Source of the DNA: Verrucomicrobiota bacterium
GTDB lineage: Bacteria; Verrucomicrobiota; Verrucomicrobiia; Limisphaerales; JADLHS01
Length of the DNA: 64,000 nucleotides
NCBI GenBank assembly: GCA_029573725.1
Contig: JAKQDQ010000178.1
Location: 124,001-188,000 of the forward strand
Reading direction: 5' to 3'
Below the pieces are notes generated by a model. It searched no databases and had not been told where the DNA came from. It saw nothing but the letters and a program-made list of their open reading frames with translations. Both the position numbers and the translations under genes were made by a program. Positions 43,473 to 47,394 of the stretch are shown here, piece by piece; position 1 is the first letter of the stretch, and every line of letters begins with the position of its first letter.

Positions 43473-44162
43473 ATGATCGCCACCTTACGGGAGTATTTGG
43501 GGAAATCGCCCGAACACGCGCGGTTCCTGCCATTCGCCATCTGGGTCGGCATCACGGCGCTGGGCATCGGAGGTGGCGACATGAAATTCTGGTCCTACGC
43601 CATCAAAGTGTTTGTCGGCCTCTGGGTGGTGTGGGAGATGCGCCGGTTCGTGCCGGAAATCCGCTGGACGTTCAGCTGGCCGGCGGTGGCGATGGGGCTG
43701 CTGGTCTTTGGTCTGTGGGTGGGGCTGGACCCGTTTTATCCCAAGAACCACTTGTTGATGCAGGACACTCCGGAGAGCATCTGGAATCCGTTCGCGCGTT
43801 TCGGCGACACCTCCGTGATGGCGTGGGGACTGATTGTCATTCGCATTTTTGGCATGACCGTGCTCGTGCCTCCCATTGAAGAGGCCTTTTATCGCTCCCT
43901 CGTTTATCGCTACCTGATCAAGTACGATTTCACCCGGGTGGCGCTGAATCATTTTGACGGACTGGCGATGGTGATGTGTGCGGTGCTGTTTGGTTTCATG
44001 CACTTTCAATGGTTGCCGGGAATTCTTTGCGGGCTGGCGTACCAATGGCTGGTGCTTCGTCGCGGTCATCTCGGCGACGCGATCACCGCTCACGCCATCA
44101 CCAACTTTTTGCTTGGAGTGTACGTGGTGTGGCAGGGAGGCGAAGCCTGGAAATTTTTCTAA
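43473..44162 (+). CDS. CAAX prenyl protease-related membrane protein (CPBP family)
   Basis: 229 residues, about six helices. The CPBP metal motif EEAFYR (in PPIEEAFYRSLVYR) and the two histidine motifs GFMHFQW and AHAITNF are present. The overall form matches the 'CAAX prenyl protease-related' proteins that travel with exosortase/PEP-CTERM systems, suggesting that such a sorting system exists elsewhere in the genome. It is a predicted glutamate-type intramembrane protease. It follows the PulC-like gene by 24 bp, so they may form an operon. Confidence 0.85.
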   Translation: MIATLREYLGKSPEHARFLPFAIWVGITALGIGGGDMKFWSYAIKVFVGLWVVWEMRRFVPEIRWTFSWPAVAMGLLVFGLWVGLDPFYPKNHLLMQDTPESIWNPFARFGDTSVMAWGLIVIRIFGMTVLVPPIEEAFYRSLVYRYLIKYDFTRVALNHFDGLAMVMCAVLFGFMHFQWLPGILCGLAYQWLVLRRGHLGDAITAHAITNFLLGVYVVWQGGEAWKFF

Positions 44163-44210: not shown

Positions 44211-45866
44211 GTGTCAACAAGGCGTAATCCGCGCCGTGTCATGCTGCCAATCGCGTCAACCCCGCCGCCGTGCGTGCTGTTTGAGGACGAACATCTTCTC
44301 GTCGTGAACAAGCCCGCCGGCTGGAACACGCACGCGCCCGACCGCTTCGCGGGTGAAGGCATTTACGACTGGCTGAAACATCGCGAGCCACGCTGGGCAC
44401 ACCTGGCCATCGTCCAGCGGCTGGATGGTGCCACCAGCGGCGTGCTGGTTTTTGGGAAAACCGCGCTGGCCAACCGGTCCCTGACGGCACAATTCACGCA
44501 ACGCTCCGTGCGAAAGAAATACTTGTTGCTGACCGACCGTCAACCCGCGCAGACCCGGTTCACCGTTCACGCCAGAATCCTGCGCGCGGGCGACCACTAC
44601 ATCACCGCTCCCCACGGGTTGGCCGCGGAAACCCGCTTTACCGGGCAAGTGGACCCGCAATGGCTGAAACGGATCAGTCCGGGGCTGATCCGCCCCGCCC
44701 TGCCGCGCCTGCATGTGTTGATCGGCGAACCCTTGACGGGCCGCACGCATCAGATCCGCGTTCACGCCGCCGCCCGGGGCATCCCCATCCTGGGTGACAC
44801 GCGCTATGGCGGCACTCCGTTTCCGCGCCTGGCCCTGCACGCCGCCGAGCTGGGTTTGCTGCATCCCGCCACCCAACAGCCGCTCACGTTCACCGCGCCG
44901 GTGGATTTCCCGACCGACCCCGCCGCGGCACTGCGGGCAGCCTTCATCGCCCCGACGGAAAGCGACAGCTTCCGGCTGATCCACGGCGCCGGGGACGGCT
45001 GGCCCGGCTGCCATGTGGACCAGTTGGGCGCGTTTCAATTGTCCCAAAGCGAAGGGCAGCTGCCACTGCCATTGTCGCAGCGATTAGGATCGCGACGCTA
45101 CCATAAAACTCTGGTGCGGCACCTGCGCGGGACCGCGGGGCAACTGTCGCCCCAATGCATGGCCGGACCACCAGCCCCGGAGCGGTTCGCGATTCAGGAA
45201 AACAGGGTGAAGTTTGAATTGAGCTTTACCGAGGGGTACTCCGTGGGTCTGTTCCTGGATCAACGCGACAACCGGCGCCGCCTGCTTACCGGGCACATTG
45301 CCGCCGACTTTGCTCCGCTCACGGTCCCCGGCCGGACGACACCGCCCGAGATGTTGAATGCGTTTGCCTACACGTGCGCCTTTTCCGTGTGCGCAGCCCT
45401 GGCGGGGGCGCGCACGACCAGCCTGGATTTGTCAAAAAAATACCTCGCATGGGGCCGGCGCAATTTTGTGCTGAATGGCCTCCACCCCGAGCCACATGAA
45501 TTCGTGTACGGCGACGCGTTTGATTGGCTGCGGCGCTGGGCCCGACGCGGACGGACGTTTGAGGTGGTGGTGCTTGATCCGCCGACGTTTTCCCAATCGA
45601 AAGCCCACGGCGTTTTCCGGGCGGAAAAGGATTACGGCGAACTGGTGGCCGCCGCGTTGCCGGTTTTAGCGCGCGGTGGCGTCTTGCTGGCCTCAACGAA
45701 TGCCGCGCGACTGGAGCCGCAAAAATTTCTCGACCAGATTGCAGGCGCGATTCGCGCAGCGCGGCGCAAGGTCGCGCAACAGCATTATGTGCCCCAGCCG
45801 CCGGATTTCCCGATCTGCCGCGCGGAGCCGGCCTATTTGAAAACCGTGTGGCTGCGCGTGGAATGA
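44211..45866 (+). CDS. RluA-type pseudouridine synthase fused to an RlmI-like methyltransferase
   Basis: 551 residues in one frame. Residues about 20-245 are an RluA-family pseudouridine synthase: LLVVNKPAGWNTHA, the catalytic AIVQRLDGATSGVLVFGKT (Asp in RLD) and GRTHQIRVHAAARGIPILGD. Residues about 330-551 are a class I methyltransferase of the RlmI/RlmK kind: GLFLDQRDNRR, LNAFAYTCAFSVCAALAGA and VVVLDPPTFSQSK. The linker of about 80 residues resembles a degenerate OB or PUA-like segment. The protein could pseudouridylate and methylate rRNA at neighbouring sites; this is inference. GTG 44211 is chosen for its promoter fit; ATG 44241 is the alternative. It converges on the vWA-like gene with a 2-bp gap. 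Confidence 0.88.
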   Translation: MSTRRNPRRVMLPIASTPPPCVLFEDEHLLVVNKPAGWNTHAPDRFAGEGIYDWLKHREPRWAHLAIVQRLDGATSGVLVFGKTALANRSLTAQFTQRSVRKKYLLLTDRQPAQTRFTVHARILRAGDHYITAPHGLAAETRFTGQVDPQWLKRISPGLIRPALPRLHVLIGEPLTGRTHQIRVHAAARGIPILGDTRYGGTPFPRLALHAAELGLLHPATQQPLTFTAPVDFPTDPAAALRAAFIAPTESDSFRLIHGAGDGWPGCHVDQLGAFQLSQSEGQLPLPLSQRLGSRRYHKTLVRHLRGTAGQLSPQCMAGPPAPERFAIQENRVKFELSFTEGYSVGLFLDQRDNRRRLLTGHIAADFAPLTVPGRTTPPEMLNAFAYTCAFSVCAALAGARTTSLDLSKKYLAWGRRNFVLNGLHPEPHEFVYGDAFDWLRRWARRGRTFEVVVLDPPTFSQSKAHGVFRAEKDYGELVAAALPVLARGGVLLASTNAARLEPQKFLDQIAGAIRAARRKVAQQHYVPQPPDFPICRAEPAYLKTVWLRVE

Positions 45867-45868
45867 GG

Positions 45869-46930
45869 TCAGCGGGGACGCGGCCGGGTTGAACGGGCAA
45901 AGACTGCGGTGCGGGATCTGCGCTGCCGCCGGCGCCGCAAGCTCATGATCACCAGCAGAAAAACCAGCAGCCCACCCACCTGAAAAACGGTTCGCCGCAG
46001 CCGCAGCTGCGGGGCATCCACCTGCTGGGGGCGCGCCGGCGACGCGTGGGCGGCCTGGGCGTTGGTCGCCACTGGCGGAGGAGTACCGGGGGCCGGTGCG
46101 GCGACTGAAGGAGAACGCTCCTGGTTGGTCCGTGCCGGCGTCAGCGCGGTTTGATTGCTGAAGGCATCCGGCGCCATCGGCAGGTAATAGGAAAAGTCTG
46201 CGGGTGGCGGAGCCAGGTCAGTTTGTTTGATGATCAGCGGCGGAGCCGTCGCGGGCGGCGGACGGACGGGCGGGCGGTCCGTCGCCAGGGGCAGGCGATC
46301 GGCCTCGGGGTATTCGGGAATCTCCAACGGCCAGGGTGGAGTGCTGACCGAGCAAGCGACGATCCGGCCCTTGACTGCGCGCAGGATGATCACGAAGGGC
46401 ATCTCCGTCTGACGTTGCTGGTCGCGATTCTCCTTGAAGGTGGCCGCGATCGTTTCGTCGCACGGGGTTCCGCGAACCGCATTTTCACCGGAGGTGACCA
46501 GCAACAAGGTAAGATGATCGGACTTGCTGATGATGGTGGTTGCCGCCTCCCAGATCACGGAAAGCTGCGGGGCATGTTCGTGTCGTTGTTGTTGCAGCAC
46601 CTGGGCAAATGTCCGGGCCAGCAACGGACTCGTGGCGGGCGTCCAGGTTTGTGCGGGCAGGGTGCCGGTCACCAACCGGTCGTTGAACAACCACAGGCCC
46701 AAAGAGGCGCGCGAACCCATCTGGCCGTTCAGTCCGGAGGCGATGATGTGGGCCACAAGTTTTTGAGTGTTTTCCGCGCGACTTTGCATCGGGGCGGAGG
46801 TTTCCACCACAAATAAAAACCGTTCGACCGGCGCAGAGGCGGCGCCGGTTTCCGGCCCGGCCCGGACGGCGGAACCGACCAGGACCAGCTGCAGCGGGAC
46901 GACCAGCAGGAAAAGACGGGAGGGCGACAT
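45869..46930 (-). CDS. Membrane-anchored vWA-like protein with degenerate metal site
   Basis: 353 residues. A signal peptide (LFLLVVPLQLVLVGSAVRA) is followed by a von Willebrand A-like domain: RFLFVVETSAPM where DxSxS would be expected, then ASLGLWLFNDRL and LTLLLVTSGENA. The metal-site residues are not conserved. A long Pro/Ala/Thr linker leads to a C-terminal membrane helix (VGGLLVFLLVIMSL) and an Arg-rich cytoplasmic end. It may sense or tether a partner outside the membrane. The ATG shares one base with the stop of the NYN-domain gene (TGATG), implying coupling. Confidence 0.6.
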   Translation of the reverse strand: MSPSRLFLLVVPLQLVLVGSAVRAGPETGAASAPVERFLFVVETSAPMQSRAENTQKLVAHIIASGLNGQMGSRASLGLWLFNDRLVTGTLPAQTWTPATSPLLARTFAQVLQQQRHEHAPQLSVIWEAATTIISKSDHLTLLLVTSGENAVRGTPCDETIAATFKENRDQQRQTEMPFVIILRAVKGRIVACSVSTPPWPLEIPEYPEADRLPLATDRPPVRPPPATAPPLIIKQTDLAPPPADFSYYLPMAPDAFSNQTALTPARTNQERSPSVAAPAPGTPPPVATNAQAAHASPARPQQVDAPQLRLRRTVFQVGGLLVFLLVIMSLRRRRQRRSRTAVFARSTRPRPR

Positions 46931-47394
46931 CAGCTTTGGCGGTAGCGTTTTTGTTCGTTGCGGTTGTATTCTCTCACACTTTCCCGCAGGGTCCGCAATG
47001 CACTTTCGACCAGCGCAATGAAATGGGAACAGGAAACCGCGCTGCCGCCGGCGGCGCTCACCGTGTCGCGTTCCGCATGGTCGTTGGTCACCACCAGCAC
47101 TTCACCGTATTCCTGGAAGCGATGTGTGACGCGCTCAATCAAATCGTCGGCGGTGCGCCCGCCGCTCGAAAACAGGACTTCCACGGCCGGAGTTCCGTCT
47201 TTCGGAACATGGGGCGGCGCACCGCTCCCGTCGAAAAAAATGGTGACGGGTGTGCCGACCGCATCCTGGTACTGGGTGAGGATCCGCACCAGTTCGTTCC
47301 GCGCGGCAGCAGAATGGGGCGGCGCGCCGCGTCTCAGGGCCGGCCAGTGATGCAACAGACTGTAGCCGTCAACCAGGATCCTTACCCAAGCCAT
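46930..47394 (-). CDS. NYN/YacP-like ribonuclease domain protein
   Basis: 154 residues. The NYN (PIN-like) fold opens with ILVDGYSLLHHWP, has the central FFDGSGAPP and GRTADDLIERV acidic motifs and the VVTNDHAERD strand. All four acidic positions expected for metal binding are visible. Relatives include Rae1/YacP, a ribosome-associated mRNA endonuclease of Bacillus. Its stop overlaps the vWA-like start, and a predicted promoter ends six bases before its ATG. Confidence 0.88.
   Translation of the reverse strand: MAWVRILVDGYSLLHHWPALRRGAPPHSAAARNELVRILTQYQDAVGTPVTIFFDGSGAPPHVPKDGTPAVEVLFSSGGRTADDLIERVTHRFQEYGEVLVVTNDHAERDTVSAAGGSAVSCSHFIALVESALRTLRESVREYNRNEQKRYRQS

Follow-up and report, generated by a model that had tools for sequence, protein, structure and literature searches.

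The closest described relatives of the protein considered here are enzymes that modify 23S rRNA. Among the methyltransferases, RlmI forms m5C1962, with the Cys of its S-C-S motif acting as the m5C nucleophile, RlmK forms m7G2069, and RlmQ (YwbD of B. subtilis) reportedly forms m7G2574. Pseudouridine synthases of the RluA family carry an HRLD motif, the His of which is non-catalytic. E. coli RlmKL unites two rRNA-modifying enzymes in one chain, RlmK and RlmL, the latter making m2G2445. According to a portion of PMC11194073, the halves of this fused enzyme cooperate, and RluC makes Psi955, Psi2504 and Psi2580. A section of PMC12149560 gives m7G2574 as modelled in helix H90, and a section of PMC3714255 treats a different PUA-methyltransferase fusion.

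The window, a stretch of 64,000 nucleotides from a Verrucomicrobiota genome, carries a gene that brings two known enzyme families together in a new combination. The gene occupies positions 44211-45866 of the plus strand as a single uninterrupted open reading frame of 551 codons. The claim of the sequence-only reading that one protein fuses an RluA synthase and a methyltransferase is borne out: the frame matches PF00849 at residues 28-188 (79.7 bits, cut-off 26.8) and PF10672 at residues 316-539 (69.4 bits, cut-off 27). The protein has 551 residues if it starts at GTG 44211 and 541 if it starts at ATG 44241; the latter may be the true start, because alignments with homologues begin only at about residue 14-20 and residues 1-18 of the AlphaFold2 model have pLDDT below 50. 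No NCBIfam model attains its own cut-off with the fusion protein. From Pfam, structure and tree, residues 19-236 (44265-44918, plus strand) are assigned to an RluC-like catalytic domain of the RluA family without S4, and from profiles and structure, residues 236-551 (44916-45863, plus strand) to a PF10672/COG1092-type methyltransferase without PUA, made up of a linker domain (about 250-330) and a SAM-binding Rossmann domain. The catalytic motifs that had been read in both halves are present: QRLDGATSG, with its Asp at residue 72 (QRLD, residues 69-72, 44415-44426), and LDPPTFSQSK, with its Asp at residue 456 (motif IV D-P-P-T-F, residues 456-460, 45576-45590). A further motif, S-T-N-A-A, lies at residues 495-499 (45693-45707).

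The AlphaFold2 model, built on 22 sequences (pLDDT 80.5, pTM 0.75), separates into the same two parts. Residues 16-236 match RluC and RluA with Z 23.7-24.5 and rmsd 2.4-2.7 over 200-205 residues; in VIA-align, the synthase half gives Z 24.0 and rmsd 2.4 over 201 residues with RluC (1v9k), and Z 24.5 and rmsd 2.5 over 200 residues with RluA (2i82). The alignment begins at residue 89-93 of the RluC chain, past the N-terminal part that we take to be S4. Residues 235-551 match 3vse, 3ldf, 2b78 and RlmI (Z 27.7-31.5, rmsd 2.3-3.1 over 284-294 residues), the best being 3vse (Z 31.5, rmsd 2.3 over 289 residues), which is aligned from chain residue 83. Profile and structure matches alike enter the methyltransferase chains about 80 residues in, the skipped N-terminal stretch presumably being PUA. 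No chain listed by Foldseek spans both halves, and the best query-normalised TM is 0.48. A trypanosome mitoribosome assembly intermediate (PDB 6yxx, chains EC and E4) contains an RluA-like protein and, as a separate protein, one folded like the methyltransferase half (Z 22.4, rmsd 3.0 over 279 residues).

The joining of an RluA-type synthase and a methyltransferase, enzymes mostly found as separate proteins, in one chain is genuine and widespread across the Verrucomicrobia group to which the source genome belongs. Among 57 genomes, comprising the window's own and its relatives and classified by manual reading, 44 have both halves in one open frame; the remainder have a frame-split gene (1), a gene split or cut at contig ends (6), the methyltransferase alone (3) or neither half, with other family members only (3). 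The class sample of 384 genomes lists 74 from the window's own order, 64 of which match at E 1e-75 or better, with 60 one-frame fusions by manual reading; other families of the class add 18 matching genomes, and all nine loci examined among these have both halves. A phylum sample of 387 genomes gave 43 matches at E 1e-45, mostly to the methyltransferase half only and in one family, which appears to be the Akkermansia group. The 26 loci of a scan of named genomes are mostly from Verrucomicrobia, from which the order is taken to be Limisphaerales (subdivision 3); three (L054, L055, L059) are labelled Chromatiales, Gammaproteobacteria or Rheinheimera, and two loci from Chloroflexi have the methyltransferase half only. 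The domain-architecture search that the sequence-only reading had proposed places the fusion in the window's order, in further families of its class and in Gammaproteobacteria, where nine of 40 genomes around the carrier G442 (locus L055) have it, one copy being truncated where its contig ends. Of 201 Chloroflexota genomes sampled, six have it, as frames of 564-586 aa that profiles of both halves confirm, so that all three phyla sampled are represented. In a broad sample of the class of G442, the fusion occurs in 1 of 274 genomes, namely G442 itself. Contamination of metagenome-assembled genomes was considered as the source of the gammaproteobacterial copies and rejected: the neighbours of L055 and L059 look gammaproteobacterial from manual reading of their translations, and G729 and G736 carry the gene deep in long contigs, more than 2.3 million and more than 3.1 million bases into a single contig. 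None of the 26 matching records in a plasmid collection spans 80% of the query. The fusion being a common known architecture, which had been named as grounds against the observation, applies in part: it is common within the class, but no account of it was found in the literature searched, which leaves out most subscription papers. One Chloroflexota locus (L168, 1341-2979, minus strand, reverse-complement coordinates) has a frame of 546 aa whose methyltransferase half is of S-S-C type; the approximately 250 N-terminal residues gave no match to the profile of the fusion synthase.

Judged by its sequence, the N-terminal half is an RluA-family pseudouridine synthase whose closest E. coli relative is RluC. 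Asp72, Tyr104 and Arg183 are invariant across 71 aligned fusions (54 from the window's order, including its own, nine from other Verrucomicrobia and eight from Gammaproteobacteria). The replacement of HRLD by QRLD, to which the sequence-only reading drew attention, is present in the window but is no hallmark: residue 69 is His in 66 of the 71 and Gln in five, the window among them. All six Chloroflexota fusions have QRLD. The assignment to the RluA family is kept despite Gln69, because the His of HRLD is non-catalytic. The N-terminal halves from Verrucomicrobia and Gammaproteobacteria group in a single clade with support 100/98, and its sister (96/88) comprises E. coli RluC and a gammaproteobacterial RluC-like protein; those from Chloroflexota fall elsewhere in the tree. 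The half thus shares with RluC its catalytic domain, fold and place in the tree, but it lacks S4, is joined to a methyltransferase and, in the window, reads QRLD. The cut-off of the subfamily model TIGR00005 is missed (142.6 vs 192.7 bits), model positions 1-71 being absent from the fusion. RluC proper, the enzyme for Psi955/2504/2580, was rejected as an identity, given the absence of S4 and a score of 92.1 bits against 378 for the RluC equivalog. At least one gammaproteobacterial carrier, G442, retains a separate RluC-like gene (L124), so its fusion is not simply its RluC. The window's own genome has seven PF00849 matches, including the fusion.

The C-terminal half had been called RlmI-like, a label that does not hold in detail. 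It resembles E. coli RlmI in belonging to PF10672 and in its linker and Rossmann domains, but RlmI has an extra N-terminal (PUA) domain, an S-C-S motif and a place in another clade. Motifs, profiles and tree instead indicate a PF10672/COG1092-type methyltransferase without PUA, distinct from RlmI, and its product is most likely m7G, as for RlmK or RlmQ, rather than m5C. S-C-S or C-C-S is found in the C-terminal region of RlmI, PH1915, TTHA1280 and two proteins of the window's own genome (L002 and L006). The fusions mostly have S-T-N, with D-Y following motif IV; 2b78, 3vse and the stand-alone enzymes without PUA show the same, and RlmK has S-N-N and R-D-H at the corresponding motifs. Asn together with [KR]-D-[YH] is therefore common to the fusion and to the m7G-type enzymes, RlmK and the RlmQ-like proteins of Firmicutes. 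D456, P457, P458, F460 and Asn497 are invariant in all 71 fusions; residue 496 is T, S or A in 69 and C in two, and the Chloroflexota fusions read C-C-N, so Asn is a better mark than the absence of Cys. In the tree, the C-terminal half lies outside the m5C clade of RlmI, PH1915 and TTHA1280 (support 100/98), in company with RlmK, the Firmicutes chains and the stand-alone enzymes without PUA. The Firmicutes relatives form a separate clade in this non-m5C region; the label RlmQ-like, under which we place 3vse, 2b78 and a Priestia sequence (WP_043977586), is one that we infer.

Whether RlmK or the RlmQ-like enzymes stand nearer could not be ranked with confidence, as profile scores favour the Firmicutes proteins and some motifs favour RlmK. 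Against the profile of the fusion C-terminal half, the Firmicutes chains score 199-221 bits, E. coli RlmI 182 and E. coli RlmK 134, and the fusion consensus has 30 positions in common with Firmicutes and not RlmK, against 14 with RlmK and not Firmicutes. The RlmK half shares D-P-P-T-F-S-x-S-K and S..YL.W..RN with the fusion; the tree position of E. coli RlmK is not trusted because its branch is long. The best solved relatives are 3vse and 2b78/3ldf. RlmQ and its likely relatives have the PF10672-type fold, the T-N motif and an F..xKDY motif, with 35-40% identity between the window's protein and the RlmQ-like relatives over residues 324-502, but unlike the fusion they have about 80 extra N-terminal residues, presumably PUA, and no synthase. 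Membership in RlmKL or RlmK was rejected: the fusion scores 132.4-133.1 bits against a cut-off of 466 for NF008748, over model positions 502-665 only, and the RlmL partner is absent. Methyltransferases that stand alone without PUA exist, so the loss of PUA need not follow from fusion. In the window's order, the methyltransferase stands alone in L110, L111, L112 and L113, of 333-335 aa except for one of 450 aa with an N-terminus of unknown kind; their synthase was either lost or never acquired.

Trees of both halves bear on a single or repeated origin. A single clade of all fusion N-terminal halves is not rejected (AU p 0.07). In the C-terminal tree, a clade of all fusions with the four stand-alone enzymes of the window's order is rejected (AU p 0.001), as is one of the Verrucomicrobia and gammaproteobacterial fusions alone (p 0.009), and a clade of the latter with the four stand-alones is not (p 0.24). 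These tests point either to more than one fusion event or to an ancient one after which the N-terminal half was lost several times. The pairing may have arisen twice, once in Verrucomicrobia/Gammaproteobacteria and once in Chloroflexota.

A model can be proposed, by analogy with RlmKL, in which the protein is a bifunctional 23S rRNA enzyme whose two marks, a pseudouridine and probably an m7G, lie close to the peptidyl transferase centre; we consider the chances of this to be about even. The RluC-like domain would isomerise one or more uridines to pseudouridine, and the C-terminal domain would use SAM to methylate a base, N7 of a guanine being the most likely position. Both halves would act while the large subunit is being assembled, on 23S rRNA domain V close to the peptidyl transferase centre. 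Since S4 (as in RluC) and PUA (as in RlmI and the RlmQ-like enzymes) are both missing, each catalytic domain could serve as an RNA anchor for the other, as in the cooperating halves of E. coli RlmKL. Activity, the m7G product, the target in domain V and the cooperation of the halves are what we infer from the enzyme families concerned. As guesses from family membership, the candidate sites would be pseudouridine 2580 (or 2504) paired with m7G2574 (or m7G2069). Six nucleotides separate G2574 from U2580, and the 23S rRNA gene of the window's genome has G2069, U2504, G2574 and U2580, a weak check since such nucleotides are conserved. Complementarity with RlmKL was uninformative: RlmKL is absent from all eight gammaproteobacterial carriers searched, but also from four of five gammaproteobacterial non-carriers.

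Coupled modification of one RNA is a plausible, and in our view the best, reading of the fusion, although the coupling would not be obligatory, because some members of the window's order (3 of 57 genomes, manual reading) carry the methyltransferase alone. These lone enzymes, together with those of Akkermansia-type genomes, indicate that the methyltransferase half can work by itself, and so lend weight to a different account, in which the halves have unconnected target positions or act on different RNAs and the fusion provides only equal dosage or shared recruitment to the ribosome. The RluC sites, too, are far apart, 955 against 2504/2580, in the relevant portion of PMC11194073. Against this account, the fusion is kept over most of the order, it recurs in Chloroflexota, where the N-terminal halves group elsewhere, and both halves are without the RNA-binding modules of RluC and of the RlmI and RlmQ-like enzymes; we regard it as possible without thinking it probable. 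A still tighter coupling, in which the halves act in sequence on the same or a neighbouring nucleotide, is highly doubtful. The pseudouridine made by the synthase, or a base next to it, would then be methylated by the attached methyltransferase; the resulting hypermodified spot, for instance an N-methylpseudouridine, would lie close to the peptidyl transferase centre, where we know of none.

That the enzyme would make m5C1962 in the manner of RlmI, in addition to pseudouridine, is improbable. Membership in PF10672 and the higher profile score of E. coli RlmI relative to E. coli RlmK speak for it, but the fusions have S-T-N in place of S-C-S, with Asn497 throughout, lie outside the m5C clade and lack PUA. 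The score against the RlmI equivalog is 97.7 bits where the cut-off is 712, and the window's genome, with four PF10672 matches including the fusion, encodes elsewhere a separate, full-length RlmI homologue of m5C type (L002, a 425-aa frame). There is also little reason to think that one half has lost its activity and is kept for RNA binding or assembly alone. Inactive RlmL(N309A) still helps 50S assembly, as a portion of PMC11194073 reports, and the window has Gln for the His of HRLD; this Gln, however, recurs in other intact fusions (five of 71 in all, and all six from Chloroflexota), and neither half looks decayed, because Asp72, Tyr104, Arg183, the D-P-P of motif IV and Asn497 are without exception in the 71 fusions. 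A frameshift or sequencing error, named in the sequence-only reading as what would undo the fusion, or a chimeric assembly, could be suspected from the seven of 57 drafts in which contig ends or a change of frame divide the gene (manual reading); for the window's own gene, no sign of this was found. The same junction is nevertheless found in 44 of the 57 relatives and in 60 of the 74 genomes of the order (manual reading), and the fusion lies on chromosome-sized contigs in G882, G729, G736 and G1102. Orthologues 53-68% identical cross the junction in many independent assemblies, so it is due neither to chance nor to artefact; an origin by error or misassembly is very unlikely, to the point of being negligible.

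If both halves do target one and the same part of 23S rRNA, the gene would reveal which methyl mark goes with which pseudouridine. In phyla where rRNA modifications are, to our knowledge, largely unmapped, it could then show where two marks are placed and which comes first. It would parallel RlmKL with another partner, as a case of a second catalytic domain taking the place of S4 and PUA.

In three gammaproteobacterial loci (L054, L055, L059), a dbpA-like helicase gene, named from its translation, directly precedes the fusion; none was found in the short flanks of L087-L092. In the window, a gene for a CPBP/Rce1-like membrane protease (PF02517) lies directly upstream on the same strand (43473-44162), and in 8 of 24 loci (L037-L060, some of them short) a relative accompanies the fusion, a weak context. 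The nuclease YacP/Rae1 is ribosome-linked, and a gene with a YacP-type NYN domain (PF05991, 98 bits) is found nearby at 46930-47394; relatives of it lie near the fusion in 4 of the same 24 loci, again a weak context.
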